DNA of 64,000 nucleotides from an uncultured Selenomonadales bacterium (GTDB taxonomy: Bacteria; Bacillota; Negativicutes; Acidaminococcales; Acidaminococcaceae): positions 1-64,000 of the forward strand of contig ONAV01000020.1 of the NCBI GenBank assembly GCA_900315925.1. Direction: 5' to 3'. The translations under genes and the position numbers were made by a program. Under the pieces are notes generated by a model that was given only the letters and a program-made list of their open reading frames with translations, did no database searches and was not told the DNA's origin. Numbering within the stretch: the first letter of the stretch is position 1; every line of letters begins with the position of its first letter. Shown here in pieces: positions 25,518 through 60,156 of the stretch.

Positions 25518-26477
25518 AAAATGAACGAGAGCAGAATACTGGCCATGCAAATTAAAGAGATAAGATAAGTGAAACGTGTAGGGGGATTGTATGATGGTAA
25601 GCAATTTATATAGAGGACAGGCAAAGAAACATAACACGTTCCGGACAGGGTTTATTGGTACGGCCATCCTGACAGTGCTGTGGGTCGTGCTGTCCCTTTT
25701 TGCAATTCCCTGCACAGGTGTGGAGGCGGCGGTGCCGAAACCGGAGGAAATCAGCGGCGAGTACCATTATTACGAAGAGAATATTGAAAGGAATAGGAAG
25801 GGGATATCCGGTCATGGTTCTGGTACCGTAGTAGTAGTTCTTCGAGGAAATACATTACAATTGGACGGCATGTGGACTGAGAATGTGCGATTACCTTATA
25901 ATGCGAAGACTGGTACTGCGCATACATCTTTTACCGATAAGCATGGGCAACTTAATGTTTATAATATTAGATTGAGTAAGGGCGCCGATGGAAAGGTACA
26001 CGCTTCGGGAACTGTTACCGTTAGCTTTACATCCGAAGGGAAACCGTATGATATGGTATTTTCTTTTAACGCAACAAAAACCCGTTCTATCGGAGTAGCT
26101 CCAAGTGGAGAAAAAAAGACGGATAAAGAGGCCGAGAAAAAGAAACAGGAGGCAGAAAAACAAAGACAGGAAGCTGAAAGACAGAAGCAGGAAGCTGAAA
26201 GACAGAAGCAGGAAGCTGAACGGAACGCCGTTCCGGGTGTAGGCAGGGTTAGTACGCAAGACGGAAGAGATATAGATGAAGACGAAAGGGATCGGAACGA
26301 CCTGCCGGAGTCGGACGCCGGTAAAGTTGGTGCGGCTGTAGGAACCGCCTTAGGGGGCGGACTGATTGGTCTTGGCGCTGGTGCAATTGGAGGTGCTGCC
26401 GGTGGAGCAGCAGGCGGTGCTGCAGGTGGCGCCGCTGGAGGTGCAGCGGGCAGTGCAGGCGGCGGTTTTAGCGGTTA

Positions 26478-27250
26478 TGGCCCGAGTGAAGGCGGTTACG
26501 GCCCGAGCGAGGGCGGCTATGGTCCGGAAGAGGGTGGCTATGGCCCGGAAGAAGGAGGTTATGGCCCGGAAGAGGGCGGTTACGGCCCAGAAGAAGGCGG
26601 ATACGGCCCGGAAGAGGGCGGTTACGGTCCTGAAGAAGGTGGATACGGTCCGGAAGAGGGCGGCTACGGCCCAGAAGAAGGCGGATACGGTCCGGATGAA
26701 GGTTTTGGCGATGGTGACGGATCCGGTGGAGATTTCGACGATTCCGGCGAAGATCAGGATGAGTCCGATGAAGATTTTGACGATTCCGGCGAAGATCAGG
26801 ATGAGTCCGATGAAGATTTCGACGATTCCGGCGAAGATCAGGACGAGTCCGATGAAGATTTCGACGATTCCGGCGAAGATCAGGATGAGTCTGACGAAGA
26901 CCAGAATGAGTCTGACGAAGACCAGAATGAGTCTGACGAAGACCAGGATGAGTCCGACGAAGACCAGGATGAGTCCGACGAAGACCAGGATGAGTCCGAC
27001 GAAGACCAGGATGAGTCCGACGAAGATCAGGATGAATCCGACAATGATAACGATGACAATCGCGATGATTTCGATGACAGTCGAGAAGATTTTGATGACA
27101 ATCGCAATGACTTCGATGACAGTCGCAACGATTTCGATGATAGTCGCAACGACTTCGATGATAGTCGCAACGACTTCGATGACAGTCGCAATGACTTCGA
27201 TGACAGTCGCAATGATTTCGATGACAGCCGCAATGACTTCGATGACAATT
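26478..27250 (+). repeat. Coding tandem repeats of giant gene A (21-bp units)
   Basis: Three successive arrays: GGYGPEE units (about 26478-26700), DESDEDQ/DDSGEDQ units (about 26740-27045) and NDFDDSR units (about 27060-27245). All are multiples of 21 bp and strongly acidic after the first array. The long open frame on the opposite strand here is a by-product of the repeat composition. Confidence 0.85.
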
Positions 27251-28699
27251 ATGACCGCGCCGGCGATGATTCTGACAAAAATGATTACGAAGATGCCGGT
27301 AGGAATCAGGACGACTCCGGCGACGATTACAATGATTACCAAGATGCCGATAATGGTCAGGGCGATGGGACCGAAGCGGAGGATCAAACTGACCCGTCTG
27401 AGGATACGCAAGGCGAGCCCGCAGCAGATAATATGACTATGGATACGCCCCCGGATAATATGACTGTTGATGAAAATGGGAACATCCACGTAACAACACC
27501 TGACGGGGAAAAAATGGTCTTCCCTCGTAATGAAGATGGTACGTTCAAAATACCATCCAAGACGGAAGAAGGGACAAATGTGGCTGATTCGGACTGGAAT
27601 GGGACAGCGACAAAAGAGGATGTTCAGTATATTGCCCAGTGGTATAAGGATAACGAGGATGCAATGCGTGCGGAACGGGCCGCGGAAGACGCACGGCGTC
27701 AGGCCGAACGGGACCTTCAGGCGGCGGATAATGCCAGATGGCGGGCAGAGCAACGGGAGATCGACAATCAAAAATCCTGGCTTACCAGGGAACTGGAGGA
27801 ACAAAAAAAGCGGGAGGAATTTGAATACAAACATTGGGAATATATTGAGAAGAAGCGCGAGGAATTCGCTCATGGTGATGAATCCCTCAGCGTAGAACAA
27901 TTGAAAAGAATCGTGAAAAAAGCCCGTTTAAAAAAGAATCAAGCCATAGACATGATAGAAGGCGGAGAAGCTGAACAGGAAGCAGCCATGTGGGATAACC
28001 GCCTGGTGACCGCTCAGGAAGTTAAATTCGTGGCAGACCAGGCGGTTAACGCCTATGGCATGCTGTCGGGTAACCAGTCGTTTTCCAACGCATACTCAGC
28101 CCTTACCAACTACACTGAAACTCTGACAGACGCATACAGGAATAATAAAAGCATGGGAAAAGCGTTTTTTAAAGCAACGGTAGACACCGGCCTGGATGTA
28201 TTTTCGAATAAGCTTGAGAGTCATGGCTGGAACATGACCGGCAACGCCTTTTCTAACGCTTACAAGCAGGTAAACGATAATCTTTATAATGGCCGTGATG
28301 CGTTTGAAGGAACCGATAAGGCAGCAGCTCTTGGCGGATTGATGGGCGGGGCCGCCCACGTTTCGAAATATCTGGGCAAGAAGAGTCATGGAACGGTTTT
28401 TGGCCGAGAGGTTGGCTTAGATGGATTTAAACCAGTGCTGAAACCGGACGTAGATGTTAACAGTACTAAACTGAAAACGGATTTTGATTCGGATACGAAT
28501 GGGATACGGGAGACGAACATCGCCGAACGGCGGATGGGAGAAGGTTTGACCAAGTCGAAACTGAACACGGATGGGGATGTGCCCAATACGAAGCTGAACA
28601 CGGATGGAGAGACAGGTGGAATTGGAAGGCAGAATGCTACGGATGTTCAGTCGGGTAAGACGAACTTAGGACAGGAGCCTGAAGTAGCCAAGCAGGGAA

Positions 28700-28910
28700 T
28701 GAATGCAGGTGAACCTACCGGCAGAACGAATGCAGGTGAACCTACCGGCAGAACGAATGCAGGTGAACCTACCGGCAGAACGAATGCAGGTGAACCTACC
28801 CTACGGGCAGAACGAATGCAGGTGAACCTACGGGCAGAACGAATGCAGGTGAACCTACCGGCAGAACGAATGCAGGTGAACCTACCGGCAGAACGAATGC
28901 GGGTGAGGCT
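28700..28910 (+). repeat. 27-bp coding repeat array carrying the frameshift
   Basis: About seven to eight units encoding NAGEPTGRT. Each unit is 27 bp; the unit at the lesion is 32 bp because CCTAC is duplicated (junction 28796-28805). Confidence 0.85.
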
Positions 28911-30221
28911 ACCGGAAGTTCCAACAAATCGAAAACAGGTGGCACGGAGTCCAAGAATCAGTCGTCTGCTTCCGATGCTGCGAACAGGGCGCAGGCCAAC
29001 GAAGACTGGCAGGGTAGCGTGGCCATGAACAAGGTGCGTAAGCTGCATAAAATCAGTCAGAAGCTGGATGCGATGGAGAAAGCGAACCCCAAAACGTACC
29101 AGAACGATCCCGAATACCAGAAGCTGTCTCAGGAGTTTGATGTCCAGGCCAGGGAAGTACGCGAAAATAAACTTTCTGTTGACCGCATGAATGCACTGCA
29201 AGGCAAGACGGGTACTGATTTGCGGAAACGCTACAATAAGTCGGATATTGAGTACGAGAAAAAGGTACTCGAATACCGTAATGAATCCATCGCGGAAGAA
29301 TACGGGCTGAAAACAGACCAGATTGGTGATTACAATGTGACCTCCAACAAGATTGCGGAGAAACTCTCAGGCGGCAAAGCTTCTCACGATACGGATACTT
29401 CCCCATACGTGAAGGTTAACACCGGAACAGGCAAAAACGCGAAGGTTGATTTCACGCAGGTTGACGGGGACCATCATCTGGCCAGGGCCATCTATAAGGC
29501 AGAACACGGCAGGTATCCGCAGACAGCAGCGGAATATGACGAGGCGTTGCGGTTGAAAGAGTTGCGCGACTTTACGAATGTGAGCACGCGGCCCAGCGAT
29601 ACCCACGAACTCCACCATAATCCGGATGCCTATGTGGGAAGCGGCAAGGGCGATGTGAATAAAGTATTGCATCCTGAGACATATGGGACGCCGGAGAAAG
29701 GCACGGGGATACTCAACAAACAGACCGCAATCCACAAGCAGGAGTTGTCGCTGAATCGGCATCACGAGCAATATGCCGAGGCCCAGCAACTACGGCAAAA
29801 ATTAAACACGGATAAAACACTGAGCGCTGCCGAAAAGACAGCGATGGGTAAGAAAATCGCTGATTTGGAGTCCCAGTCGGCCAGCAACCATTACGAAAGC
29901 GTACGTACGACAGCCAAAGAGTTTAACATAATCAAGAACATAAACGATGTGAACATAAAGAATGGACTGGGGGATGGCCTGAGCAAGGAGGCCAAGCAAA
30001 TCGGCAGATGGGCCAATCAGGTGGCAGAAGGCAGGTTAGAAGTTGAGACCTACAAGCAACTTGTAACAAAACTGTGCGGCTCAGAGGAGAATGCGCTGAA
30101 AATTGTAGCGGATGGTTTCAGGACTACCAATAAGTAAACAGAAGAGTCTGTTTGTTATACGAACGCAATGAATGAAAAAGGAGTGTAGAGATATTTAGTT
30201 TGACGGAACGAGGTATGAGTT

Positions 30222-31346
30222 ATGCATTGTAAACATTGTTTCCGGCAGTTGCCGGACGGGGCGCGCTTTTGCAAGTATTGCGGACAACCGGTAGCAGCAC
30301 AGCCGCAGCCCGGACAAAACCAAAAGAGGAATCCTCAGCCGCAAAATTATCCGCAGCAAGGAGGAAGGCAACAATATCCGCAACAGAACAGAGGACAGCA
30401 GGGTTATGTGCAGCCACAACAGGGCTATCCACAACAACAGGGCTATCCCGAGCAGACTTATCCGCAACAGGGATATGGGCAGCAGCAGGGTTATCCTCAC
30501 CAGGGATATGACCAACAAGGTTACTCTCAGCAGGGATATGGTCAACAGCAAGGATATCCCCAGCAAGCTTATCCTCAACAAGGCTATCCTCAACAAGGAT
30601 ATGCGCAACAACAAAACTATCAGCAACAGGGTTATGGACAACCACCTGCCGGGGAAAACGTGCCGCCCAGGAAACTGTCCCTGATGGCGCAGATCAAGGC
30701 AGGCGTGATGGACATCATCCGTCATCCGGCCAAATTGTTGCCGACCATTATTTTGTCGGTGATCTGGATGGTGATTTCCTACCTGATGGCCATGGGCAAA
30801 GACACGGCCGTGGTTAAGTGGATTAATACACTGACCTATGCCAGCGGCGGTATGTATGGCGGATCGTTGGGCGCGGCCGGCATTGTTCTGTCATTGTGGG
30901 CAGGCAAGAACCCGTTTGCCAGGGACGCGAACGGGCAAAGCCTCATGACCAAGGCCACCAATAAAGGAATGGCAAAAGTCGCCCCGTTCGTCATCGGACT
31001 GGGTGTGAGCCTTGTGCTGTATTATTTCTTCAACGTGACCAGCAGCACCAACAACGTAATGGTGGGTGTGATGGCGGCCATCGGTACTATTCAGGCGGCC
31101 CAGAGCAGCCACGGTATCATCTTTTCCACCGTGTTGTTTATCATTGAAAAAGTTTCCGGCGGACGTACGCCGTCCAGCAGTGCGGTGCGCAACAGCCTGA
31201 TGGGCGCCACCGCCGGTTTTGCGATTTGCGTGCCGCTGACTTACCTGCGTCAGCCGCTGATGATCGTGGCGGCGGGCAGCGCCGTATTGCTGCTGGGTAT
31301 TTTGCTGGCGGTACTGGGCCAGCAGAAAAAGCCGGCGCAGGCGTAA
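30222..31346 (+). CDS. Zinc-ribbon / YPQQGY-repeat / multi-spanning membrane protein, copy A (intact)
   Basis: A 374-aa protein. An N-terminal zinc ribbon ([19 protein letters not shown]) is followed by about 115 residues of Q/Y/P/G repeats ([11 protein letters not shown]). From about residue 145 comes a conserved membrane domain: an amphipathic entry ([23 protein letters not shown]) and five hydrophobic segments including [36 protein letters not shown] and [22 protein letters not shown]. The prion-like YPQQGY linker resembles low-complexity linkers that favour condensation (inference). It follows giant gene A by 84 bases, and the same order is seen in copy B (48642), so the two proteins probably work together. 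Start ATG 30222 gives the ribbon at once. Confidence 0.82.
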
Positions 31347-31409: not shown

Positions 31410-31499
31410 ATGAAAAAATATCTTTCCGTTTTGCTGGCTTTGTTTGTATTTGTGTCAGCGCTGCCTGCCCGTGACTGTGCAGCAGGAGGTACTGTATGA
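31410..31499 (+). CDS. 29-aa signal-peptide-like leader ORF
   Basis: MKKYLSVLLALFVFVSALP then ARDCAAGGTV and stop. It has its own GAGGAG and is the same signal peptide that begins the 24063, 33612 and 43758 proteins, but without a mature domain. Its stop overlaps the next start (ATGA at 31496-31499), so it may couple translation of the downstream membrane gene. It is most likely the remnant of a deleted family member. Confidence 0.5.
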   Translation: MKKYLSVLLALFVFVSALPARDCAAGGTV

Positions 31500-32131
31500 C
31501 TGAGCAGCCTGTTTACGAAAGCGAAAACATAACCATGTGCACCGACGGCAAGTACCGCTGGGTGTACGAGCTGAATCTGTATAAAAATCCGGCAATCATC
31601 AAAGAAGTCGGGCGGGTAATGCTCATCAGTTTAGTGATTGTGCTAGTGCTAATATCTGGTTTTCAAATCATAGACGGTATAGGCACTTTAGCGGAAAGGC
31701 TATTGTTCGTTGCGGAGTTGGCGGGTATTTTAATTGTGATCCTGGTGGTTATCACGATCCTGGGCTACCTGCTGTATTCCTATATGATGGGCGGAACCTA
31801 CTGCGCGTTGTTCGAGATGGATGAAAACGGCGTCTGTAACAAGGCCCAGGAAAAGCACATCAAGAAAGCGGAACTGATCAGCGCGATAACCGTAATTGCG
31901 GGTTTAGCCGGCGGCAGGCCTGGCGTGGTAGGCACAGGCATGCTGGCATCGGCGCGTACTTCCATGTACACCAGCTTCGACAGTGTAAAGGAACTGGAAA
32001 TTTTGCCGAAGCAGCACCTGATCCGTCTGAACGGGACATTAGATCGAAACCAGGTGTATGCGGAAGAGGAAGACTTTGCGTTTGTGGCGGATTTTATTCG
32101 AGCGCGCTGCCGTAATGCAAAGGTGATATGA
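31496..32131 (+). CDS. Two-TM membrane protein of unknown function
   Basis: A 211-aa protein with a short N-terminal cytoplasmic part, two membrane helices (about 41-60, VMLISLVIVLVLISGF, and about 73-97, VAELAGILIVILVVITILGYLL) and a C-terminal domain of about 110 residues (YCALFEMDENGVCNKAQEKHIKKAELISAITVIAGLAGG..., SVKELEILPKQHLIRLNGTLDRNQVYAEEEDFAFVADFI). The domain's strand pattern is like a PH-type fold. AGGAGG sits 7 bases before the ATG. It follows the leader ORF by an ATGA overlap and precedes a DUF805 gene, suggesting one transcript with cassette A. Confidence 0.7.
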   Translation: MTEQPVYESENITMCTDGKYRWVYELNLYKNPAIIKEVGRVMLISLVIVLVLISGFQIIDGIGTLAERLLFVAELAGILIVILVVITILGYLLYSYMMGGTYCALFEMDENGVCNKAQEKHIKKAELISAITVIAGLAGGRPGVVGTGMLASARTSMYTSFDSVKELEILPKQHLIRLNGTLDRNQVYAEEEDFAFVADFIRARCRNAKVI

Positions 32132-32190
32132 TTATGAGCGAACATTTAATGTATGCTTTTGGCAATTGAGGAGAAAACGGTACAGGTAAT

Positions 32191-32571
32191 ATGAGTGGGG
32201 AAAAATATGTGCCGGATAGCAGTTTGCAGTCAGTCTTTCTGCGCTGTGATAACCGTTTGAATAGAAAGCGCTATATATTGCGCTGTCTTACAGTTTCCGT
32301 GGTAGTTTCGGCGGGTATGGTTGGTCTTGCTCTTATTGCTGACAGGCTTTCCGGTTCAGCAATTACTGCAGCGGCAGTGTTGCTTTGGCTGATAGCCTTT
32401 ATTCCGGGCCTCCTGCTTACGATACGCCGGCTCCATGATTTGGATAAACCGTCCTGGTGGTGTATCGGTATGTTTATCCCAATAGTAAATTTTCTGCTGT
32501 TGTTTTTCCTTCTTTTTTATAGAGGCACTAAGGGTCCTAACCGATATGGGCCTGATCCGTTGGACATTTGA
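32191..32571 (+). CDS. DUF805 family membrane protein
   Basis: A 126-aa protein with the DUF805 signature: N-terminal CDNRLNRKRYI, two to three membrane helices, the RRLHDLDKPSWW motif and the C-terminal GPNRYGPDPLD. Members are small inner-membrane proteins of unknown role. GTACAGGTAAT gives only a weak ribosome site. It ends 50 bases before a terminator and is probably the last gene of the cassette A transcript. Confidence 0.85.
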   Translation: MSGEKYVPDSSLQSVFLRCDNRLNRKRYILRCLTVSVVVSAGMVGLALIADRLSGSAITAAAVLLWLIAFIPGLLLTIRRLHDLDKPSWWCIGMFIPIVNFLLLFFLLFYRGTKGPNRYGPDPLDI

Positions 32572-32622
32572 AAAAGTGGATCTGAGTAAAAACGAATGAG
32601 TGTTATATTATGCATTGTTTCC

Positions 32623-32658
32623 ACTGCGGTCTGTCAGTAATGGAAGGCCGCAGTTTTT
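32623..32658 (+). terminator. Repeated-family terminator, copy 1
   Basis: Stem ACTGCGG / CCGCAGT with an inner CT/AG extension and TTTTT. The hairpin plus flanking GAGTGTTATATTATGCATTG is nearly identical at 49842-49877; the hairpin alone recurs at 43572 and 51270. Confidence 0.85.
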
Positions 32659-32693
32659 ATAGAATAACGGCTCCAGAATTTCTGAACGAAAGG

Positions 32694-32738
32694 TTTACAT
32701 TATTTTTTCAACATGATACAATATGTACAAAACGTACA
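32694..32738 (+). promoter_or_regulatory. Promoter and operator of the HicB/HicA-like pair
   Basis: TTTACA (32694-32699), 17-base spacer, TACAAT (32717-32722), then the dyad TGTAC-aaaac-GTACA (32724-32738) at the expected transcription start. The position fits autorepression by the antitoxin. Confidence 0.6.
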
Positions 32739-32761
32739 CAGTGTATTTCAGGAGGTAAATT

Positions 32762-33199
32762 ATGATAGCAGTGGAACAGTTGAGCCGTTCGTCTACTGAA
32801 GTTCGTAAGGAATGGAGCAGTACGATTGACGCCACGGTACGGGTGCGGCCGCAGTTCGTGCAACGCACGCATGACAATATAACGATGCTGAATACGGTTA
32901 TGCTTGCGGAGCTTATGGGCAGCTACAAAATACATGCTGCTTTATATCGGGAACCGGACGGGTCGTATACCGCTTCTGTAGATGAAATCGACGTAATAGA
33001 GAACGGAAAAACCAAAGACGAGTGCCTGGACAACCTTCTTACCGCATTGAAAGAGTATGCCCGCGATTATTATGAAGAGTTTGACTATTGGTCTGCAGCG
33101 CCAAATCGTCGGGCGCATCTGCCATATGTGATTAAGATTCTGACCACGCCAGATGCAATGATGCGGAGGGATATCCTATGCCACGATGGAAAGAATTGA
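32762..33199 (+). CDS. PHD-like/HicB-like antitoxin
   Basis: A 145-aa protein with two parts. Residues about 6-60 (SRSSTEVRKEWSSTIDATVRVRPQFVQRTHDNI) resemble the PHD/YefM-type DNA-binding antitoxin fold. Residues about 60-110 (YKIHAALYREPDGSYTASVDEIDVIENGKTKDECLDNLLTALKEYARDYYEEF) are a HicB-like partially degenerated RNase-H fold. AGGAGG lies 6 bases before the ATG. The end overlaps the HicA-like gene by 22 bases, so the pair is translationally coupled. The antitoxin comes first, opposite to classical hicAB. Likely neutralises the next gene's product and represses the promoter. Confidence 0.75.
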   Translation: MIAVEQLSRSSTEVRKEWSSTIDATVRVRPQFVQRTHDNITMLNTVMLAELMGSYKIHAALYREPDGSYTASVDEIDVIENGKTKDECLDNLLTALKEYARDYYEEFDYWSAAPNRRAHLPYVIKILTTPDAMMRRDILCHDGKN

Positions 33200-33396
33200 A
33201 GCGCTTTTGCGAGCGGGACGGCTGGGAACTGTACAAAGATACTGACCATTACTACTATCGCAAGTTATTGCCGGATGGAACAGTGTTGCGTACAAAAGTG
33301 TCCAGGGGCAGTGGGGAAATCCGTCCGCATATGTGGCAGGAGATACTGAAAAAGCAGCTGAAAGTCACGCAGGAATATTTTAATAGCAAGATTTAG
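33178..33396 (+). CDS. HicA-like mRNA interferase toxin
   Basis: A 72-aa basic protein. The pattern KELKRFCERDGWELYKDTDHYYYRKLLPDG...VLRTKVSRGSGEIRPHMWQEILKKQL matches the HicA double-stranded-RNA-binding-like fold: N-terminal helix, Gly-Trp turn, strand pair with His at the DHYYY position, C-terminal helix. The usual catalytic His of HicA (GSHH) is represented by D-T-D-H here. It would cleave mRNA when free of the upstream antitoxin. Confidence 0.75.
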   Translation: MPRWKELKRFCERDGWELYKDTDHYYYRKLLPDGTVLRTKVSRGSGEIRPHMWQEILKKQLKVTQEYFNSKI

Positions 33397-33446
33397 TTTA
33401 AATCGCTGTTAAATTTATACATACTAATAAACCGTTATACTGCCGC

Positions 33447-33470
33447 CCACAGGGGAACCTGTGGCTTTTT
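33447..33470 (+). terminator. Rho-independent terminator after the TA pair
   Basis: Stem CCACAGG / CCTGTGG, 4-base loop, then CTTTTT. Confidence 0.8.
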
Positions 33471-33640
33471 CTTTTATACCACTAAATAGTTTCCAATTTA
33501 TAAACAATTATTTTGTTTTTTTGTATTATAATTTAAATGGGGAATAATATGCAGTTGGTTGTTTTTCCCTTTGATACTAAAAAATGCATATCACCGGAGG
33601 TGGCGTGTGCGATGAAAAAATATATTTCCGTTTTGCTGGC
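33463..33640 (+). repeat. Promoter-signal-peptide direct repeat, copy 1
   Basis: About 175 bp nearly identical to 43612-43783. It runs from TTTTCTTTTATA through TATAAT (33527-33532), the conserved CACCGGAGGTGGCGTG ribosome-site context and the first ten codons MKKYISVLLA. The two copies are 10.15 kb apart in the same orientation and drive different genes. Confidence 0.85.
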
Positions 33641-35588
33641 GGTTTTTGTGTTTGTGCTGGGGATGATGACACGGAATTGTTTCGCAGCAGGTGTGACACG
33701 GCATAAAGTTACGGATTTTGACGGAGTCGTTACCGTTATGGAATTACCGGGATTAGATCTGCAATACTATGCAAAATACAATAAAGATATACAGGCACTG
33801 AAAAAAGATTTGGTGCCGGCATCTTCTCTCTCTAGGCAAATTATAGCAATTTCTAAACCTCAACGAATACTTGCAAAAGCAAAACCAGGAACAGTTATAC
33901 ATGTAAAGCCCATTGAATCCAATTTTAGTAGTAAACATAATGGTGATGTTCCGTGTATTTATTTTGGAAGGAGATCTTTTACAATCAACGGCAGAACGTT
34001 TTCGCTTATTACCCCAAATGACGGAGAAGACAATTTTTTGCCCATTTGCCCGCCATTTGACGGACGGCCGGCAGAAGGTTTCAGATTAGTTATTCCTAAG
34101 AATGCGGATATGGTTTGCGCTCACTGGCGCAACGCGCCATCATTTAATTCCATGGAAAAACTGAAAAAATATAAAGCGTTAAATAGTTTTGTCAGAACGG
34201 AATACTACATCTTCACGTCTGACGAAGCATTTAAAAAGGCCTACAAAATCTGGACAGGAAAAACCATTACCGGTCCGATCAGTTCATCGTCTACTACAAA
34301 GAAAGAATCGGCCAAGACAACTACGAATCAGAATAAAAACAACTCAAAATCAACAGTTCAACCGAAACAAAGCGAAGATGATTCTGACGGTCTGGGAACG
34401 ATCGGAATGGTTGGCGCGGGAATAGCCGCGGCAGGAGCGATTGGTTTCGGTGCGAGCCGAATCCTGGGCGGAGGAGGCGGTGGTTCGGGTGCAGGCACAG
34501 CGGAACCGGTGCCTCAGGAACCGGAAACCTTTGTGTACAAGGATCCGGCGACCGGGGCTGAGACCCTGTATGAAAAGGATCCGAATACCGGGGAGTGGTT
34601 CGACCCGAGTACGGGCGCCATTACCGATCCAAGCAAACTGGAAGATTATTCGCGGCAACGCATGCAAGACAGAACATGGATGAACGGTCAGATGGAGAAT
34701 ATGCGAGACCGAAAAACCGACGTAGACCGTGCCTGGCAGAAACAGGATCAGGAATCGGCCAAAGAGATGCAGAAGAAGTTTGAGGAAATCGATCGTCAGG
34801 GAGCGAAGGATAAGGCGGCCATCCGTTCCGGCACCTACGGTATGAGTGATGCGCAACGTACTGAATACCTGAATAAGCGGCAGGAAGACTATGTGTCGAA
34901 ACAGGCTGCGGCGCACCGGACCGCCGAAAACTGGGACCGGGCGGTAACCGTGGCGGAAGGTACCGGGAAACTGGCAGATATTGGCATGGATATCGCTGCT
35001 ACGTATGGAAAAGTTGTGGATGGCGGTCTTGTAACCGGTCGTATTGCAGATGGTTATACGTTACTGAAAAATATGGCCGGAAGCGGTGCCGATGCCTATT
35101 CCAAAGGAAACAGCGTTGTAGGCGGTATGACCAAAGGATTCGTAGACGGACTCGTCGACGTTGCTCAGAATAATGCGAATACAAAAATACAAAAGGTTGC
35201 GGCGTTTGTCGGCGGCGACGCTTTTAAGGCTGGCCTTGAGTCAGGGCTGAAAGGAGAAAGTGCCGCAACAGTATTAAAAAAATCTTTTAAGGGCGGACTG
35301 AAAGGCGGCGCAAAACTTACCATTCAGGAAATCGGAAATAATCTTGAAAATAAAATTCAGACAAGCAAAACAGACAGCTTGAAGAACGCATATGATCATG
35401 CAAGAGAAATAAGGAAAGATTTTAGCAAGACGATTTCTCCCAAAAGTGTTGAAACTTTAAAGCAGATGAACCTGGAGAAACACCTGACTACTGTGAAAAA
35501 TGCAAATTATCAGTACTGGACAAATAACATTGGTAACGCGGTTACAAAAAACACAGTCCCGGATGCACTTTTTGGAGAAAATAATTAG
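33612..35588 (+). CDS. Signal-peptide-led membrane protein of the giant/zinc-ribbon cluster
   Basis: About 658 aa. The signal peptide (KKYISVLLAVFVFVLGMM, cleavage near CFAAG) leads an extracellular domain of about 200 residues paralogous to that of the 24063 protein (LDLQYYAKYNKDIQ, TEYYIFTSDEAFKKAYKIW). A Gly/Ala membrane helix follows (GMVGAGIAAAGAIGFGASRIL). Next is a repeat of the form Y-K/E-K-D-P-x-T-G (DPATGAETLYEKDPNTGEWFDPSTG as overlapping units), a charged coiled coil, and a helical C-terminal domain. That domain (DAYSKGNSVVGGMTKGFVDG) resembles a segment of both giant proteins (DAYRNNKSMGKAFFKATVDT). No zinc ribbon is present, but the next gene encodes one. ATG 33612 is preferred because GGAGG precedes it and the signal peptide begins there. 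Confidence 0.75.
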   Translation: MKKYISVLLAVFVFVLGMMTRNCFAAGVTRHKVTDFDGVVTVMELPGLDLQYYAKYNKDIQALKKDLVPASSLSRQIIAISKPQRILAKAKPGTVIHVKPIESNFSSKHNGDVPCIYFGRRSFTINGRTFSLITPNDGEDNFLPICPPFDGRPAEGFRLVIPKNADMVCAHWRNAPSFNSMEKLKKYKALNSFVRTEYYIFTSDEAFKKAYKIWTGKTITGPISSSSTTKKESAKTTTNQNKNNSKSTVQPKQSEDDSDGLGTIGMVGAGIAAAGAIGFGASRILGGGGGGSGAGTAEPVPQEPETFVYKDPATGAETLYEKDPNTGEWFDPSTGAITDPSKLEDYSRQRMQDRTWMNGQMENMRDRKTDVDRAWQKQDQESAKEMQKKFEEIDRQGAKDKAAIRSGTYGMSDAQRTEYLNKRQEDYVSKQAAAHRTAENWDRAVTVAEGTGKLADIGMDIAATYGKVVDGGLVTGRIADGYTLLKNMAGSGADAYSKGNSVVGGMTKGFVDGLVDVAQNNANTKIQKVAAFVGGDAFKAGLESGLKGESAATVLKKSFKGGLKGGAKLTIQEIGNNLENKIQTSKTDSLKNAYDHAREIRKDFSKTISPKSVETLKQMNLEKHLTTVKNANYQYWTNNIGNAVTKNTVPDALFGENN

Positions 35589-35639
35589 AAGAGAATTTAT
35601 TAATTATGTGAAAACGGCTTTGAACAGGAGAGTACGAAG

Positions 35640-36149
35640 ATGAAGATAGCGGCAAGTTTTAAGGATGCATTGCTGGTCGCAGAACAACATTGCCAGGAAT
35701 GGCTCTTTACGGGTAGCGGCAAAAGCTTCAAGTTGAGGGAATTGGAGGAAATCGCCGGCGAGTATGACGCAAAGACTCCGTTAGGAGAATTGGATTTTCT
35801 TGTCATAACGGATGATGGCTCCATCGGTTTGATGTACGCGTTTTGCGAGGAACCTTTATGGTATTTTGTATCGCCGGAGTTCGCTGTGGCGAATATCTTG
35901 AAGGAGGATCCGAGAAAGTACCTGGTACCGGCAGATGACAGTGCACAGATGGCAGGAAGAACCGGAGCGGCAATGGGAAATGTTGCAGGGGCCGTCGCAT
36001 TTTGTAAACAGTGTGGTGCGCCGTTACGAAGCGGCAGTCGTTTCTGTGAGAACTGCGGAGCAAAGAACGCGCCGGAGTTTTGCACGAACTGCGGTGCAAA
36101 ACTGAATCCTAACAGCAACTTCTGTAAAAATTGCGGAACGAGAGTGTGA
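35640..36149 (+). CDS. Small protein with two C-terminal zinc ribbons
   Basis: A 169-aa cytoplasmic protein. Residues 1-95 form an alpha/beta domain of unknown family (MKIAASFKDALLVAEQHCQEWLFTG, GELDFLVITDDGSIGLMYAF, EEPLWYFVSPEFAVANIL). The C-terminal 55 residues hold two zinc ribbons (FCKQCGAPLRSGSRFCENCG and FCTNCGAKLNPNSNFCKNCG), closely similar to those ending the 24063 protein. CAGGAGAG precedes the ATG by 11 bases. It follows the 33612 gene by 51 bases and is probably its partner, carrying the ribbons in trans. Confidence 0.75.
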   Translation: MKIAASFKDALLVAEQHCQEWLFTGSGKSFKLRELEEIAGEYDAKTPLGELDFLVITDDGSIGLMYAFCEEPLWYFVSPEFAVANILKEDPRKYLVPADDSAQMAGRTGAAMGNVAGAVAFCKQCGAPLRSGSRFCENCGAKNAPEFCTNCGAKLNPNSNFCKNCGTRV

Positions 36150-36167
36150 GGAATGAATTCAAATTTT

Positions 36168-36201
36168 ACCCTGATGCGCACATTACGCATCAGGGTTTTG
36201 C
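36168..36201. terminator. Bidirectional terminator between convergent genes
   Basis: Stem ACCCTGATGCG / CGCATCAGGGT with a 7-base loop. T-rich on the + side (TTTTGCTTTT) and A-rich on the other, serving the gene at 35640 and the minus-strand unit ending at 36218. Confidence 0.8.
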
Positions 36202-36217
36202 TTTTCGCGGTTTTGTT

Positions 36218-36631
36218 TCACTTCTTGTCGATAATCGTCAGCTCCGGACAGACTTCTTCGTAAATCATGTCGCCGTTTTCGTTGTTCACATCAGTGATCT
36301 CGCCGAAGAGTAAGATGCGGTGATTTCGGTATTCCGGTGTGTGCAGCGCCTGCTGCCAGGTGCATTCTTCCAGCTGATTGTTTTTGTAGCGCAGGTACAC
36401 CGGATTATCGAAACCGCTCTTTTCCCACGCTTTAAAGAAAAGCAAAGTCGTGTGGCCAAAATAACCGATGCCGGTCATACCGATGATTTCGTAGGCCCTG
36501 TCCGGCAACGGCGCAGAAGGGGGAAGACCGGCTTCTTCATCACGCTGTTGTATCAGCTGTTTGCCGTAATCAATGGATTCCTTCTCGGTAAAATGTACTT
36601 CCGTAGTGTCTGCATAAATAATTTTTCTCAT
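36218..36631 (-). CDS. Hypothetical protein at the end of the dnaB unit
   Basis: A 137-aa soluble protein starting MRKIIYADTTEVHFTEKES. No family recognised. The sequence suggests alpha/beta (YEIIGMTGIGYFGHTTLLFFKAWEKSGF, YRNHRILLFGEITDVNNENGDMIYEEV). AAAGGAAAGGAC precedes the start (36631). The open frame extends 27 codons upstream into the gap after dnaB, without a better start. Codon usage and its place 24 bases after dnaB suggest co-transcription. Confidence 0.65.
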   Translation of the reverse strand: MRKIIYADTTEVHFTEKESIDYGKQLIQQRDEEAGLPPSAPLPDRAYEIIGMTGIGYFGHTTLLFFKAWEKSGFDNPVYLRYKNNQLEECTWQQALHTPEYRNHRILLFGEITDVNNENGDMIYEEVCPELTIIDKK

Positions 36632-36654
36632 AGATAATAGTCCTTTCCTTTCCG

Positions 36655-38043
36655 TCAATTTTCTTTTTGCAATTCCATAATATTTTTTGGAATCTCCACA
36701 AACTTGGTGCACTCGCTGATGAAAAACAAATTGATATTGCCGGTAGGGCCGTTGCGATGCTTGGCCACGTTCAGTTCCGTGATGCGGCTGGGCTCTTCGT
36801 TTTTGTAATAGTTTTCCCGGTACAGAAACATTACGATGTCCGCGTCCTGTTCCAGTGAGCCGGATTCCCGCAGATCGCTGAGGATGGGGCGCTTCACCTG
36901 ACGCAGTTCCACGCTGCGGCTCAGCTGACTTAAGGCCAGCACCGGCACGTTCAGCTCCCGGGCCATGGCCTTCAGGCCCCGGCTGATCTCGCTGACTTCG
37001 TACTGACGGTTGGTGGTTACGTTACGGCGAACGCCGGGGGCCTGCATCAGTTGCAGGTAATCGATCACGATCAGGTCCAGTCCGCCTTCGTTTTTCAACT
37101 GCCGTGCGCTGTCCCTCACTTCCAGAATGGATAGACCCGGCGTGTCGTTAATATAAATGCAGGCGCCGGCGATTTTGTCCGACGCAGGCCAGATGCGGTT
37201 CATCACTTCCATCTGTTCTTCGCCGGTGGTGTCCGGACCCGGGCACAGCTCGTCGTTGTCCACATCCGCTTCCGTGCAGATCATGCGTTGCAGCAGCTGG
37301 CTCCGGCTCATTTCCATGCTGTAGAAGGCCACCCGTTTCGGGGCGTCTCCTTCTTTGGCGCCCCGCAGGGCCACGTTGGTGGTAATGTTCAGGGCCAGGG
37401 CTGTTTTGCCCATGGAAGGCCGGGCTGCCAGAATGATAAAGTCCGAGGGCTGCAGCCCGCCGGTGAGACGGTCCAGGTCCCCGTACCCGGTGGAAAGGCC
37501 GGTGACGGGCTCACCATTTTCCAGACGCCGGCCCATGCGGTCCATAGTGTCGGTCATCATGTCGTGTACGGAAACAAACCCGGCGGAGCGTTTGCCGGAA
37601 GAGAGGCGTTCCAGTTCCTGCCTGGCGCTGGCCGCCAGGCTGCGGGTATCTACCGTGTCGTCGCAGCTCATGGCGGCGAGGCCGTTGCCGGTTTCCAGAA
37701 TACGGCGGCGCACGGAAGCTTCTTCTACCAGTCCGGCGTGGTGTTCCACGTTGACTGCGGTGGGCGTGATGTTGGCCAGAAACGTAATAAACTTTACCCC
37801 GCCGACGGCGTCAAACTGATCCATGTGTTTCAGCTCGGCGGTCAGGGTTATCAGATCGACCGGTTTGTTGCGGCTGTACAGGTTCATCATGGCCTGAAAC
37901 ACAATCCGGTGGGTCTGCCGGTAAAAGTCCGTGGGCTGCAGTCTGGCAGTCACGGAACCGATGACGGAATTATCAATCATCATGGCGCAGAGCACAGACT
38001 GCTCCGCTTCAATATTCTGTGGAATTTCAGTATTTTGCAGCAT
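36655..38043 (-). CDS. dnaB: Replicative DNA helicase DnaB
   Basis: Hexameric 5'-3' helicase that unwinds the fork (about 462 aa). The N-terminal primase-binding domain (IPQNIEAEQSVLCAMMIDN, FYRQTHRIVFQAMMNLY) is joined to the RecA-like domain. Visible motifs: Walker A ARPSMGKTALAL, YSMEMSRSQLLQRM, Walker B DLIVIDYLQLM, H4 VLALSQLSRSVELR, and the arginine finger region KHRNGPTGNI. Length and motifs are normal. An ATG at 38043 or a TTG four codons earlier may be the start; AAAGGAG lies just upstream. It follows a DnaC-like loader and a replisome-organizer-like gene, an order typical of phage and plasmid replication units, but it could be the host's only dnaB. Confidence 0.93.
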   Translation of the reverse strand: MLQNTEIPQNIEAEQSVLCAMMIDNSVIGSVTARLQPTDFYRQTHRIVFQAMMNLYSRNKPVDLITLTAELKHMDQFDAVGGVKFITFLANITPTAVNVEHHAGLVEEASVRRRILETGNGLAAMSCDDTVDTRSLAASARQELERLSSGKRSAGFVSVHDMMTDTMDRMGRRLENGEPVTGLSTGYGDLDRLTGGLQPSDFIILAARPSMGKTALALNITTNVALRGAKEGDAPKRVAFYSMEMSRSQLLQRMICTEADVDNDELCPGPDTTGEEQMEVMNRIWPASDKIAGACIYINDTPGLSILEVRDSARQLKNEGGLDLIVIDYLQLMQAPGVRRNVTTNRQYEVSEISRGLKAMARELNVPVLALSQLSRSVELRQVKRPILSDLRESGSLEQDADIVMFLYRENYYKNEEPSRITELNVAKHRNGPTGNINLFFISECTKFVEIPKNIMELQKEN

Positions 38044-38084
38044 CCGTTTTATCAAACTCCTTTAGTTTTTTTCGCAACAGTGTG

Positions 38085-38205
38085 CCCCCGGAAGCGTGTC
38101 GCGGCCAGCCGAAACTGATAACCGCCCGCACATGGGGAAGAGACCGCCGAAGCAGACCGATGCATCGGCATGGGGGACCGGTCTGCCGCCCGCACGCTTC
38201 GGGGG
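38085..38205. repeat. GC-rich inverted repeat between dnaC-like and dnaB
   Basis: CCCCCGGAAGCGTG (38085-38098) pairs with CACGCTTCGGGGG (38193-38205) with one bulge. The interior contains further GC-rich dyads around GCATCGGCATG and ACCGGTC. It may be an attenuator or mRNA-stability hairpin within the minus-strand unit. Confidence 0.5.
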
Positions 38206-38220
38206 AAAGGTACAGAACCG

Positions 38221-38934
38221 TTACGCCTCTTTTTTCTTTGTATCGTTTTCCTCCAGCGGCAGCTTCTGCTGTTCGGGAGGACAGGGCATTCCTTTTTTCA
38301 GGCCGGCTTCCGCCTCTCTTCTTTCTTTCATTTTTTCGGCGCGGCGGCTGCTGGGCATGGGCAGCACCAGCGGCAGACAGCGCTCCAGCATCTGTTGGAT
38401 GGAGTAGATGCGCTTTGACTTGGCGTTTTCGTCTACCAGGTTATCCTGCTGGTAAGGCGTGGAGATGATCATGGGAATCTTTTTTTCGTGGCAGGTATTC
38501 ACGATCAGGTTCAGGATATTGCTGCTGTTGGAAGTCTCCGCCTCCTTGCCGAAATCGTCCAGCACCAGAAGGTCCAGGCTGCACAGTTCGTTCAGGAACG
38601 GCAGCCGGCTGTCCGGGCTGAGGGTAGGCAGCGTGTTCATGATGGTCAGCATGCTGGTGTAGCGGCAACGGTAGCCCCTGTCGGTAAGGGCGTTGACGAT
38701 TTCCGCCGCAAGATAGGTTTTGCCGCAGCCGCTGGGCCCGTACAATAACAGGCCCCGGCCGTCTTTCCGGTATTTTTCAAACCGCTCCACATAGTTTTTG
38801 CCGTAATTGGTGGCAATGGGGTTCTCCCCGTTATCGTTCGCAAAGTCGCAGTCGCATAACAAAGCAAGGCCAAGGGCTTTGCGGCGCAATTCCTGTTTGA
38901 CCAGTTCCGCTATGTTTAATTTTTTCTGTTTCAT
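38221..38934 (-). CDS. DnaC/DnaI-like helicase loader ATPase
   Basis: AAA+ ATPase (237 aa) of the IstB/DnaC group that loads DnaB. Walker A is GPSGCGKTYLAAEI, Walker B is LDLLVLDDFGKEAET, sensor I is KIPMIISTPYQQDN and the arginine finger lies in RIYSIQQMLERC. The start at 38934 (MKQKKLNIAELVKQELRRKALG) has GGAGG upstream; the open frame extends further only into intergenic sequence. The C-terminus is a charged tail (PLEENDTKKKEA). It lies between a replisome-organizer-like protein and DnaB, which supports the loader role. Confidence 0.85.
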   Translation of the reverse strand: MKQKKLNIAELVKQELRRKALGLALLCDCDFANDNGENPIATNYGKNYVERFEKYRKDGRGLLLYGPSGCGKTYLAAEIVNALTDRGYRCRYTSMLTIMNTLPTLSPDSRLPFLNELCSLDLLVLDDFGKEAETSNSSNILNLIVNTCHEKKIPMIISTPYQQDNLVDENAKSKRIYSIQQMLERCLPLVLPMPSSRRAEKMKERREAEAGLKKGMPCPPEQQKLPLEENDTKKKEA

Positions 38935-38967
38935 AAAATCAATTTCCTCCAATATTTTTTTCGCAGG

Positions 38968-39056
38968 TGAATCGTAAGCTGCGTTGGATAACAATGACGC
39001 AGGCAGTTGCAAAAGCGACAATCGGCGTATAGCCGAATGAATCGGTGTTTGCTTAA
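38968..39056. repeat. Half copy of the 3418-3579 inverted-repeat element
   Basis: Matches the loop and right arm of the element (GTAAGCTGCGTTGGATAACA... through GAATCGGTGTTTGCTTA) in the same orientation, at roughly 75 % identity by eye. The left arm is missing. It lies between the DnaC-like and organizer-like genes. Confidence 0.65.
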
Positions 39057-40474
39057 TACGTTACGCCAAAGTCCCGGGCCATTTCGTCCAGCCCCGGGTT
39101 ATGGGGATGCAGGAACTCCCGGAACCGCTGCTGCCGTTCTTCCGGGGAAAGGTTCGCCAGATGTTCGCTGCCGGGAAGGCAACGGGTAAAGGCCTGTGGT
39201 TCCGCTTCAGAATCAAATCCGCCGCCGGGATCCCGGTTGTACTTTCCGTCCCGCACGTTGATAAAATTTTCTTCCTTCAGCAGCCAGGTAAAGGTGGCGC
39301 GCCAGTTGTTCCGTGTGTGGGTGCGTCCCATAAGGAAGGGGCTGTTTTTTACATTTTCAATGACCTTTAAGAAGGTTTCTTCCCCGAACCGGTACAGAAT
39401 GTCGTACAGTTTTTCCGCAAGGGAACTGTATAAGCCCTTAAAGGTTTTCAGATTCAGCCGGTTCCAGGCGCGCAGCACGTTCTGTGCCGGTGCGGCCAGT
39501 TTGTCCAGCAAGATCAGTTTCGATTCGTCCACATAATCGCCGGGGGAAAAGGGAAGACAGCTGCCGTCGGTTTCATCCGCGGGGTTGGGCGGTTCCGTCC
39601 GCAGGACGTCCGGTGCATGGGGCGAACCTTTATCCGTAACCGGCACTTCGCCTGTTTTCGCATGGGCATAATTGGAATTACAATTATCACTGTTTTTAAT
39701 TACTAAATTATTACAATTATAATTATTATAATTATAGTCAGCTTGCGTACCGGAAGGTTTGTCACACACAGCGTCACGGGACGCGTCACCGGATTTTGCT
39801 TTCCGTTTTGCAACCGCAGTCGCAGCGCGTTTTTTCGCCGGTTTTTTCAACGGTTTTTCTGCGGTTTCCGAACCCGTTTCACCAACGGGCGCCGTTACCG
39901 GTTCGGCAGGGTTTTTCATTGCTGCTTCGTTGTCAGTTTCCGTCACCGCTTTGTTGCGTTTTTTTGTCGCCCCCTTGCTGCATTTTTTCGTCGCCGGTTC
40001 GGCACCGCAATCTGTCGAAGGCTCGTTCCCGTTTTCTGCCACCAGTTCGGCATGGTTCGATGACGCTGCACAGTCGGCCATTGTATTTCTGGCACGCCAG
40101 GCTGCCGTCCGGGCCGCGCCTTTGGCCCGCTGCTCCGCCGTTTTTTCTGCTTTCTGCTGGGCGGCGGCTTTTTTCATCTTATCCTTGCGGAGCAGGGTGA
40201 TGAAAATCTTGCCGTCTTCTATGGTGATCAGGCCAAACTTCTGCAGGGTTTCAATGGTCCTGGCAACGATAGACGAAGAACAGTGGAAGTACTCGGAAAA
40301 CTTATCGGCGTCCATGTCCGACGCCGGCATGGAACGGACGCAGCCTTCGGGATCCTTCAGGGCCAGGCCTACCATGCGATGATAATTGCCGGTGATGGCA
40401 TCGCCATCCGGTTCCATGGAAAGGGTTAACAGGGTGTTGATATCAAAAAACTGATGTAAGACTGATACAGCCAT
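39053..40474 (-). CDS. Replisome-organizer / DnaD-like replication initiation protein
   Basis: A 473-aa protein. Residues about 1-110 look like the winged-helix domain of phage replisome organizers and DnaD (MAVSVLHQFFDINTLLTLSMEPDGDAI, FSEYFHCSSSIVARTIETLQKFGLITIEDGKIFITLL). A basic Ala/Lys-rich disordered linker (about 110-300) contains an Asn/Tyr run (YNYNNYNCNN). The C-terminal part (about 300-420: LLDKLAAPAQNVLRAWNRL...) includes the FSWLLKPENFIKVLEGKY-like motif FTWLLKEENFINVRDGKY, found in phage replication proteins at the DNA-binding end. GGAGG precedes the ATG. It probably binds origin DNA and recruits the DnaC-DnaB pair downstream. Confidence 0.8.
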   Translation of the reverse strand: MAVSVLHQFFDINTLLTLSMEPDGDAITGNYHRMVGLALKDPEGCVRSMPASDMDADKFSEYFHCSSSIVARTIETLQKFGLITIEDGKIFITLLRKDKMKKAAAQQKAEKTAEQRAKGAARTAAWRARNTMADCAASSNHAELVAENGNEPSTDCGAEPATKKCSKGATKKRNKAVTETDNEAAMKNPAEPVTAPVGETGSETAEKPLKKPAKKRAATAVAKRKAKSGDASRDAVCDKPSGTQADYNYNNYNCNNLVIKNSDNCNSNYAHAKTGEVPVTDKGSPHAPDVLRTEPPNPADETDGSCLPFSPGDYVDESKLILLDKLAAPAQNVLRAWNRLNLKTFKGLYSSLAEKLYDILYRFGEETFLKVIENVKNSPFLMGRTHTRNNWRATFTWLLKEENFINVRDGKYNRDPGGGFDSEAEPQAFTRCLPGSEHLANLSPEERQQRFREFLHPHNPGLDEMARDFGVTY

Positions 40475-40564
40475 TACAACAATACCTCCAATAGTATGAG
40501 TTTGTTATTTCAGCGCGGCGCGCTGATTTTTTTGTGCTGCGTTGTAAACGAACGCATCCTTTGC

Positions 40565-40615
40565 AAAAAAATAACATTCCGGCCCCGACGTAATTTCACA
40601 TCGGGACCGGAATGT
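40565..40615 (-). terminator. Rho-independent terminator of the minus-strand sigma gene
   Basis: Stem ACATTCCGG(C/T)CCCGA(C/T)G on both arms (40574-40590 and 40599-40615), 8-base loop. On the minus strand it is followed by TTATTTTTT. Confidence 0.85.
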
Positions 40616-40639
40616 CAAAAGCAGACAGGTGATGATCTC

Positions 40640-41263
40640 TCAACTCACATGGCAATCCAGTAAACCGCGCAGGCGGAGCAGGGCTTTGCGCCTTGTCTTC
40701 CGTACAAAGCGGGGTGAGCAGCCTAAGCGGGCTGCAATCTCGTTTATGGTTTCCTGACGGAAATAATATGACTGGATCACGGTCTGTTCATTCCGGTTCA
40801 GGTGCTGAATCGCGTCCTGTACCGTTTGGGCATATGCGTTCTGCAACAGGCAGGCTTCCGGTTCCCCGTGGGGGGGCGCAGAAGGCGAGCCGGTATCGCC
40901 GGAACTGTTTTCGGGCGAGCCGGTATCGGGGGTGAAAGAGGACGCGTCTTCCTTACTGCGCCGGTATTCCATTCGATGAACGCTGTTAATGAGGTCACAT
41001 TTGATAACCTGCTTGATCAGGGCAGGAATCTCCTCATCGGGAACCCCTCCGGAGTAACTCATAATAAACTCCACTAAGGCAAGAGAGGCAATGCTGCGGA
41101 CTTCGTCTTTCCCCAGCCAGCCCACAAAATAAGATACCTTGCCAAACTGGTCGACAATCGGCTCCGCGGTGGCACATGTCCGCCGTACAGCCTGCGTGTC
41201 TCCCTGTTGGGCAAGGTAAATTTCTTCGTTCCAGGGGAACTTTCTCAATGCTGAAAAATCCAC
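40640..41263 (-). CDS. Sigma-70-like RNA polymerase factor
   Basis: A 207-aa protein. Residues about 20-100 resemble a degenerate region 2 (VDQFGKVSYFVGWLGKDEVRSIASLALVEFIMSY, ALIKQVIKCDLINSVHRMEYRRSKED). A Ser/Gly/Pro linker (DTGSPENSSGDTGSP) follows, then region 4 (AIQHLNRNEQTVIQSYYFRQETINEIAARLGCSPRFVRKTRRKALLRLRGLL), a clear helix-turn-helix. AAAGGAGCG lies about 14 bases before the ATG. It is transcribed from a strong promoter in the divergent region and ends in its own terminator, so it may be separate from the replication genes. A role in controlling the divergent amidase unit is plausible. Confidence 0.8.
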   Translation of the reverse strand: MDFSALRKFPWNEEIYLAQQGDTQAVRRTCATAEPIVDQFGKVSYFVGWLGKDEVRSIASLALVEFIMSYSGGVPDEEIPALIKQVIKCDLINSVHRMEYRRSKEDASSFTPDTGSPENSSGDTGSPSAPPHGEPEACLLQNAYAQTVQDAIQHLNRNEQTVIQSYYFRQETINEIAARLGCSPRFVRKTRRKALLRLRGLLDCHVS

Positions 41264-41305
41264 GGAAGGGATTCGCTCCTTTCTTTAAAAATATACTAAA
41301 TAATT

Positions 41306-41353
41306 TATTCCGGAATACATGGTTATTATACCATAAATCGCTATAGATGTCCA
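41306..41353 (-). promoter_or_regulatory. Promoter of the minus-strand sigma gene with start-site palindrome
   Basis: Read on the minus strand: TGGACA (41353-41348), 17-base spacer, TATAAT (41330-41325). The perfect 12-base palindrome TATTCCGGAATA (41306-41317) covers the expected transcription start and may be a repressor site. Confidence 0.65.
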
Positions 41354-41811
41354 GCAAAAGCTGTTAAAATTTATTTCACATATTATTCACAATTAAAGTA
41401 AAATTTGAGAGTTTCACATAAAAAGTGCAGAATTTATAAAAATAAATTCACACTTTATTCATAATTTCGCAAAAAATTACTTGATTTTTTTAAAAATATG
41501 TGAAACTGGCCGATACATTCCAAGTAAATTCCAAGTTATTTAAAATTAAATTTAGAAATTCAGAAAAACATAAAGAATTTTTCACCAGTTTTTTTCAAAA
41601 AAATTTTAAAAAAACGGAAAAAATGGTTCCGTTTTTTCGGGCTCGCGGGATTATATAAGTGAAAGGGAAAACAGGAAACAAGGATTCCGGTGACAGCTCG
41701 TCTGTCGGTGCAAAATCGTATGGAATTCCTGTAACCTGATCGCAAAAAATATAATCGGCCGCGCAAAAAATAATCAGCGCTGCCGGAAAAACGAAAAGGA
41801 GAGAATGAATT
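41354..41811. other. AT-rich divergent control region with TTTCACAT motifs
   Basis: About 460 bases, very AT-rich compared with the roughly 50 % GC of the neighbours. TTTCACAT occurs at 41374-41381 and within GTTTCACAT at 41411-41419, and in inverted form ATGTGAAAC at 41498-41506; ATTCACA occurs twice more. No ORF. It separates the replication/sigma unit from the amidase unit and could be a regulatory region or a replication origin for this module; no DnaA-box cluster was recognised. Confidence 0.5.
41611..41637 (+). terminator. Terminator-like hairpin before the amidase gene
   Basis: Stem AACGGAA / TTCCGTT with A-run and T-run flanks. It could stop read-through or attenuate amidase expression, since it lies 175 bases upstream of that start with no gene before it on this strand. 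Confidence 0.5.
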
Positions 41812-42453
41812 ATGGTAGTGGAGAACCCTGTTGTGATTACGGAAAATGAATTATTTGAGCTGGCGAAGCAGGCCCGGGGCCGCATCACCGCAATCTATCT
41901 GCACTGGACCGCCGGACACTACGGCCAGGTGTTTGACGATTACCACCTGTGCATCGACCAGGACGGTACCGTGTATGCCACCTGCGACGATCTGTGCGAA
42001 CGCAAGGCGCACACCTGGATGCGGAACAACGGCACCATCGGCATCGCCCTGTGCTGCGGTTACGATGCGGAATGCGAACTGCCTGCCGCCGTCAGCGCCA
42101 AGACGGCGTGGGGTGCTACGGGCCCCGGCGAATACCGGGATCCGTATCAGGCCATGGTGGATGGGGGAACGGAACCGCCCACGGCGATTCAGATCGAAGT
42201 ACTGGCCAAGATCGTGGCCATTCTCTGCAAGACGCTTCGGATTCCCAACAGTTCCGAACGGGTGATGACTCACTGTGAAGCTGCCTTCCGTGACGGTTAC
42301 GGTCCCGGCAGCGGCGACCCGGAAACCAAATGGGACCTGTGGTTTCTGCCGGACGATGCCCGGCATGGCCGGCTCTTTCCCGGCGGTTTCCTGATCCGCG
42401 GCAAAGCGGCGTACTATCTGTGGGATATGAATGAGACCAAGAAAGCGGCGTAG
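41812..42453 (+). CDS. N-acetylmuramoyl-L-alanine amidase (amidase_2 fold)
   Basis: A 213-aa peptidoglycan amidase cleaving between muramic acid and L-Ala. Zinc-site motifs: HWTAGHYG (first His), the central IGIALCCGYDA strand, THCEAAFRDGYG (second His) and KWDLWFLPD with the basic/acidic residues of the third ligand region. There is no signal peptide, as in phage endolysins or spore/lysis amidases. AAAAGGAGAG precedes the ATG. With DUF1659, DUF2922 and YvrJ genes downstream it forms a set often seen in Clostridia and Negativicutes. Confidence 0.85.
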   Translation: MVVENPVVITENELFELAKQARGRITAIYLHWTAGHYGQVFDDYHLCIDQDGTVYATCDDLCERKAHTWMRNNGTIGIALCCGYDAECELPAAVSAKTAWGATGPGEYRDPYQAMVDGGTEPPTAIQIEVLAKIVAILCKTLRIPNSSERVMTHCEAAFRDGYGPGSGDPETKWDLWFLPDDARHGRLFPGGFLIRGKAAYYLWDMNETKKAA

Positions 42454-43611: not shown

Positions 43612-43783
43612 TTTTCTTTTATAACACTAAATAGTTTCTAATTTATAAACAATTTTCTTGTTCTTTTGTATTATAATTTAAATGGGGAATTATATGCAGT
43701 TGGATATTTTTTCCCTTTGATATTAAAGATAGCATATCACCGGAGGTGGCGTGTGCGATGAAGAAATATATTTCTGTTTTGCT
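43612..43783 (+). repeat. Promoter-signal-peptide direct repeat, copy 2
   Basis: Nearly identical to 33463-33640, including the TATAAT, the CACCGGAGGTGGCGTG context and codons for MKKYISVLLA. After that codon run the sequence changes abruptly to that of the giant gene (QAKKH...). The junction at about 43785 is thus a recombination point. Confidence 0.85.
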
Positions 43784-49887: not shown

Positions 49888-50033
49888 AAACTCGCTCATT
49901 TTTTTGCTAATTTCAGTTAAAACTCGCTCATTTTTTTGCTAATTTCAGTTAAAACTCGCTCATTTTTTTGCGGATTTCAGTTAAAACTCGCTCATTTTTT
50001 TGCGGATTTCAGTTAAAACTCGCTCATTTTTTG
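49888..50033 (+). repeat. 32-bp tandem repeats (four full units and a partial one)
   Basis: Units of AAACTCGCTCATTTTTTTGC followed by a 12-base AATTTCAGTTA-type part, at 49888, 49920, 49952, 49984 and 50016 (partial). Units 1-2 have TAATTTC and units 3-4 have GGATTTC. No spacers. The last unit runs into TATAAT (50034-50039) with GTTAAA 17 bases upstream, so the repeats form the upstream part of a promoter in front of the DUF4143 remnant. Confidence 0.85.
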
Positions 50034-51497: not shown

Positions 51498-51524
51498 TTT
51501 TTTATCGAAAAGGGAGAGATGAGC

Positions 51525-52781: not shown

Positions 52782-52829
52782 ACCCTGTAATCTGCCGCGA
52801 TTCATATTTTTAAAAAACGGAATCTCGGT

Positions 52830-52858
52830 TTGAAATAATTACCGTTTCCCTTTATAAT
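52830..52858 (+). promoter_or_regulatory. Strong sigma-70 promoter, cassette copy 1
   Basis: TTGAAA, 17-base spacer, TATAAT. About 55 bases around it, from TTTTTAAAAAACGGAATCTC to TTTAATTA, are nearly identical to 56410-56470. A partial third copy (TTTTTAAAAAACAAAATCTC...) begins at 51342. Confidence 0.75.
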
Positions 52859-52919
52859 TTAATTATAGAATAAAATATAAGTACCAATAAGTAAAGAGAT
52901 GAGTCAGGAGGTAATAGTG

Positions 52920-56119: not shown

Positions 56120-56130
56120 CATTGTAAGAA

Positions 56131-60154: not shown

Positions 60155-60156
60155 CC

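Follow-up and report, generated by a model that had tools for sequence, protein, structure and literature searches.

A CCTAC duplication within a 27-bp coding array divides a large repeat-rich gene of an uncultured Selenomonadales bacterium into two preserved reading frames

The window analyzed here is a stretch of 64,000 nucleotides from an uncultured Selenomonadales bacterium, and it carries two copies of a two-gene cassette. The first gene of the cassette (gene A) is about 1,500 codons long and is divided by a short duplication into two overlapping reading frames. Its 5' part encodes, in order, a hydrophobic start resembling a signal or transmembrane segment, a Gly-Ala stretch, YGPEEGG and acidic 21-bp repeat arrays, and a helical middle region. 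A linker containing a tandem array of 27-bp units joins this middle region to the C-terminal domain, and gene B is the next gene. The second copy of the cassette consists of the paralogues A' and B'. Coordinates are given in Table 1.

Table 1. Features of the two cassettes and of the frameshifted array (positions in the window)
Feature	Position	Strand	Basis
Gene A, 5' part, ending at TGA 29026-29028	25591-29028	+	ORF, translation, homology
Tandem array of 27-bp units coding for NAGEPTGRT, 7.9 copies	28697-28915	+	TRF and unit spacing
32-bp unit with +5 bp frameshift	28792-28823	+	Sequence
CCTAC tandem duplication (28795-28799 and 28800-28804), the frameshift	28795-28804	+	Sequence
Gene A continuation in the other frame: remaining array and conserved C-terminal domain	28794-30137	+	ORF, homology
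Possible reinitiation ORF	29025-30137	+	Sequence; inference
Gene B, unbroken, 374 aa: zinc ribbon at the N-terminus, QQGYP repeats, and a hydrophobic C-terminus	30222-31346	+	ORF, homology
Paralogue A', 1618 aa, intact single frame	43746-48602	+	ORF, homology to both halves
33-bp array in A' at the equivalent linker, 21 copies	46663-47358	+	TRF
Paralogue B', split (ORFs 48642-49367 and 49313-49765)	48642-49765	+	Comparison with B

The array in gene A has the character of a coding minisatellite, in which tandem in-frame units of nine codons lie inside an ORF. Its units start at 28711, 28738, 28765, 28792, 28824, 28851, 28878, and 28905. Spacing is 27 bp throughout, with the sole exception of the 32 bp that separate 28792 from 28824, and repeat-family analysis agrees. 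This longer unit and the one after it have a C-to-G change in common (CTACGGG, not CTACCGG), and the 22-bp sequence across the junction is unique in the entire assembly. With 83 exact tandem pentamers in the window, a tandem repeat of 5 bp is by itself no rarity; the notable point is the out-of-phase placement of this one within a coding array.

The upstream frame reads NAGEPTGRT repeats as far as the insertion and then off-frame residues until the TGA. The downstream frame has its last stop ahead of the break at TGA 28791-28793, after which it takes up the NAGEPTGRT repeats beyond the insertion and remains open to its end. GC content by codon position changes phase over the array: the bin from 28591 has 0.65/0.52/0.45, and the bin from 28891 has 0.41/0.63/0.53.

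Both halves of gene A are covered by a single frame in A', which lies 18.4 kb downstream, and likewise in an intact orthologue on contig DDQB01000091.1 of Acidaminococcaceae bacterium UBA2453. Therefore, the two halves of A represent one gene. The C-terminal part is 69% identical to A' and 73% identical to the UBA2453 orthologue; the larger N-terminal part is 48% and 55% identical, respectively, and nucleotide stretches of A and A' outside the arrays are about 74–82% identical. The initial annotation had attributed the frameshift to a CCTAC duplication inside the array and had described one event parting two preserved frames. The single 32-bp unit among 27-bp units bears out the former claim, and the intact homologues, in which both halves form one gene, confirm the latter.

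The linkers of these relatives differ. The array of A' is built of in-frame units only, and its unit is different from that of gene A. The UBA2453 orthologue has a linker without an array, which suggests that the expansion in gene A is lineage specific. From these sequences, independent growth of the linker by in-frame units seems to be the rule, with the 5-bp event as an exception. The C-terminal domain was found in only two species of one genus among the genomes searched, and no relative was found outside the genus across 380 genomes of the class. A search for strain variation returned only UBA2453 from genome contigs and no match from viral contigs. The C-terminal domain had no match in Pfam, NCBIfam, PHROGs, or PDB sequences, and its predicted structure is a weak model (pLDDT 64, pTM 0.37).

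Constraint on the C-terminal half was estimated as branch dN/dS from three sequences (the window copy, A', and UBA2453), with bootstrap 95% intervals. The window branch has a dN/dS of 0.24 (95% interval 0.16–0.38), against 0.36 for A' and 0.27 for UBA2453, and the upper limit for its neutral share is about 14%. Beyond the break, the downstream frame is free of stops for 442 codons, against an expectation of about 57 for each neutral substitution per site. The absence of stops suggests that neutral drift since the break amounts to less than about 0.05 substitutions per site. Thus, neither the relaxed constraint nor the further disabling changes of a decayed pseudogene are found downstream, and the break is either very recent or not real. 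The earlier observation that 350 downstream codons are undecayed was correct, and the open run is in fact longer.

Gene B and its paralogue show the reverse arrangement. In the first cassette A is broken and B is intact, whereas in the second A' is intact and B' is broken. B and B' are 94–96% identical over 300-bp stretches. B' is frameshifted because it is 7 bp shorter than B at about 49307, precisely where a 99-bp block that both cassettes share without a mismatch ends. In G011, a different genome of the genus, the orthologue of B carries a longer in-frame stretch here. The UBA2453 contig does not reach the site, so the comparison there covers B, B', and G011. Further on, an 11-bp tandem duplication without mismatches (CCTATTTGCAT) puts the G011 orthologue out of frame near its C-terminus, and an A-like N-terminus follows closely. 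Apart from the break in A, the frameshift in B' is the only one recognised in the window, and a Pfam scan of 29 other ORFs (between 59-21015, 31496-42450, and 51519-62741) gave no sign of split domains. Therefore, indels are not general in this contig. The presence of one broken and one intact gene in each cassette could reflect random loss among redundant copies or assembly trouble at repeats. Just downstream of B', an intergenic 32-bp tandem repeat with T-rich units is present at 49888-50032 (4.5 copies, 98% matches).

The break in gene A is tentatively explained as a real and recent null allele, of an ordinary kind, in a redundant gene, and this explanation is placed slightly ahead of an assembly error. 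Gene A belongs to a duplicated cassette encoding a large, probably exported, repeat-rich protein of an unknown family. Its linker array may have grown in this lineage through in-frame duplication of the 27-bp unit, and a short slippage or tandem-duplication error, which would account for the second CCTAC, may then have thrown the 3' third out of frame. Ribosomes on A would translate about 75 off-frame codons and terminate at TGA 29026-29028, giving a product without the C-terminal domain. The event would be too young for visible decay, and the loss would presumably be buffered by the intact A'. In favor of a null allele are the lone 32-bp unit among 27-bp units, the array-less linker of UBA2453, and the lack of split domains among the 29 other ORFs; moreover, constraint on the 3' half is undiminished and both halves match single intact ORFs in A' and UBA2453. 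Against it, the allele comes from a single draft assembly, and an array in a duplicated cassette is a typical spot for short-read assembly to fail. In addition, the perfectly preserved 3' half would require that a young event was caught by luck. The situation resembles recent pseudogenes and null alleles of duplicated genes in its single frameshift, the conservation of the rest of the gene, and the intact paralogue nearby, whereas here the allele is known only from assembled sequence. A mutator background was not supported, as the portion of mutL present, which is cut by the contig start, is free of internal stops, and another contig carries a mutS-family gene.

An assembly artefact, of which the initial annotation had already warned, is a serious possibility. 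Two pieces ending in the repeat may have been joined with a 5-bp overlap left unmerged, or a population mosaic may have been collapsed, in which case the true gene would be in frame. The genome is a draft typical of metagenome-assembled genomes (100 contigs, 88% complete), the array contains an exact 73-bp self-repeat, and the contig carrying the second A-family copy of UBA2453 ends inside its 33-bp array. The position of the B' frameshift at the end of the cassette-identical block, the tandem-duplication frameshift in the G011 orthologue of B, and the complete lack of decay in the 3' frame of A point in the same direction. Even for a reference genome, errors in the assembly of repeat-rich genes have been documented (PMC12817950). 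A literature search on frameshifts caused by repeat misassembly in metagenome-assembled genomes returned nothing to the point. On the other side, the C-to-G variant that the 32-bp unit has in common with its neighbour is the kind of trace expected of genuine repeat evolution. De Bruijn assemblers, as a rule, join only words found in the reads, and the CCTACCCTACGGG junction should thus exist in the reads unless it was made at scaffolding. A few bases duplicated exactly in tandem fit an unmerged short overlap and slippage alike, and the sequence alone does not discriminate between them. The preference for a real allele is therefore a judgement, based on the common variant and on the rarity with which de Bruijn assembly invents words.

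Phase variation, in which slippage of the CCTAC pair or recombination between flanking units would switch the C-terminal domain on and off, is improbable. A deletion between flanking 27-bp units, identical examples of which exist, could drop the odd unit and restore the frame. However, a unit of 27 bp is a multiple of three and its copy number cannot toggle the frame, and the pentamer is present in only two copies. A return to the off state would require a fresh 5-bp duplication, which makes a regular switch unlikely. Known phase-variable systems use many short units or homopolymers. The locus has neither many short units nor, in its main repeat, a length that is not a multiple of three. The collections searched, with one genome per species, contained no variants, and the closest orthologue (UBA2453) is array-less while the array of A' has in-frame units only. 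Of the initial proposal that the break is recent or phase-variable, the first part stands if the break is real, given the dN/dS of 0.24 and the zero stops; the second is not supported, given the 27-bp unit, the two pentamers, and the lack of a variant in the collections searched.

Two known systems come close. In Neisseria, C-terminal phase variation is reported, as are low-copy tetramer tracts that differ between strains; two- to three-copy tetramers of this kind are listed for gonococcus (PMC5320596). Gene A resembles the opa pentamers and other simple-repeat phase variation of Neisseria in that a short change in a coding repeat alters the downstream frame (PMC5320596). In contrast, gene A has two pentamers only, with no demonstrated length variation, and its main 27-bp unit keeps the frame. 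Coding repeats of Mycobacterium tuberculosis vary mainly in frame and are frequently misassembled (PMC12817950). The pe_pgrs/ppe coding minisatellites (VNTRs) of that species likewise form a repeat-rich family in which most length changes keep the frame, a minority of indels shift it, and misassembly is frequent (PMC12817950), but the protein here is unrelated and the present comparison draws on assembled genomes, not population data.

Stop-start coupling has a slighter chance than phase variation. The off-frame ribosome would stop at TGA 29026-29028 and restart at ATG 29025, releasing a free C-terminal domain. The first stop after the shift does form an ATGA overlap close to where the conserved domain begins, at an invariant Met, with AGGG at 29011-29014, 10 nt before the ATG. 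However, unbroken relatives conserve both the Met-Asn pair and CAGGG as coding sequence, and 2 of 20 wrong-frame stops have such an overlap, so chance is ample to explain it. The free domain would also be without the exporting N-terminus. It is very unlikely that the two cassettes form a reciprocal pair, with A off and B on in the first and A' on and B' off in the second, in which repeat frame changes select the A and B copies that are made and stop-start coupling frees the C-terminal domain of A. Programmed -1 ribosomal frameshifting, which a +5 insertion would need for the full protein and for which the frames overlap from 28794 to 29025, has almost no probability and was rejected, as relatives do not need it and an in-phase X XXY YYZ slippery heptamer is absent from 28794-29026.

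If the break is real, the locus offers a clean case in which an expanding in-frame repeat disabled one of two gene copies and decay has yet to set in. If it is an artefact, it cautions that repeat arrays in draft metagenome assemblies are poor grounds for inferring phase variation.

The surrounding DNA shows several further features. Between the cassettes, 36655-42453 encodes phage-like replication genes (a DnaB helicase and DnaC- and DnaD-like loaders) and an endolysin-like amidase; this region is possibly a prophage remnant. An ORF at 56515-58515, with no Pfam match, is highly repetitive (42-, 69-, and 111-bp periods), rich in Ala, Arg, and Glu, and open throughout. The starts of three large neighbouring ORFs (24033, 33537, and 43746) have the leader KKYISVLLA or KYISVLLA in common, which suggests an exchange of 5' ends among repeat-protein genes.
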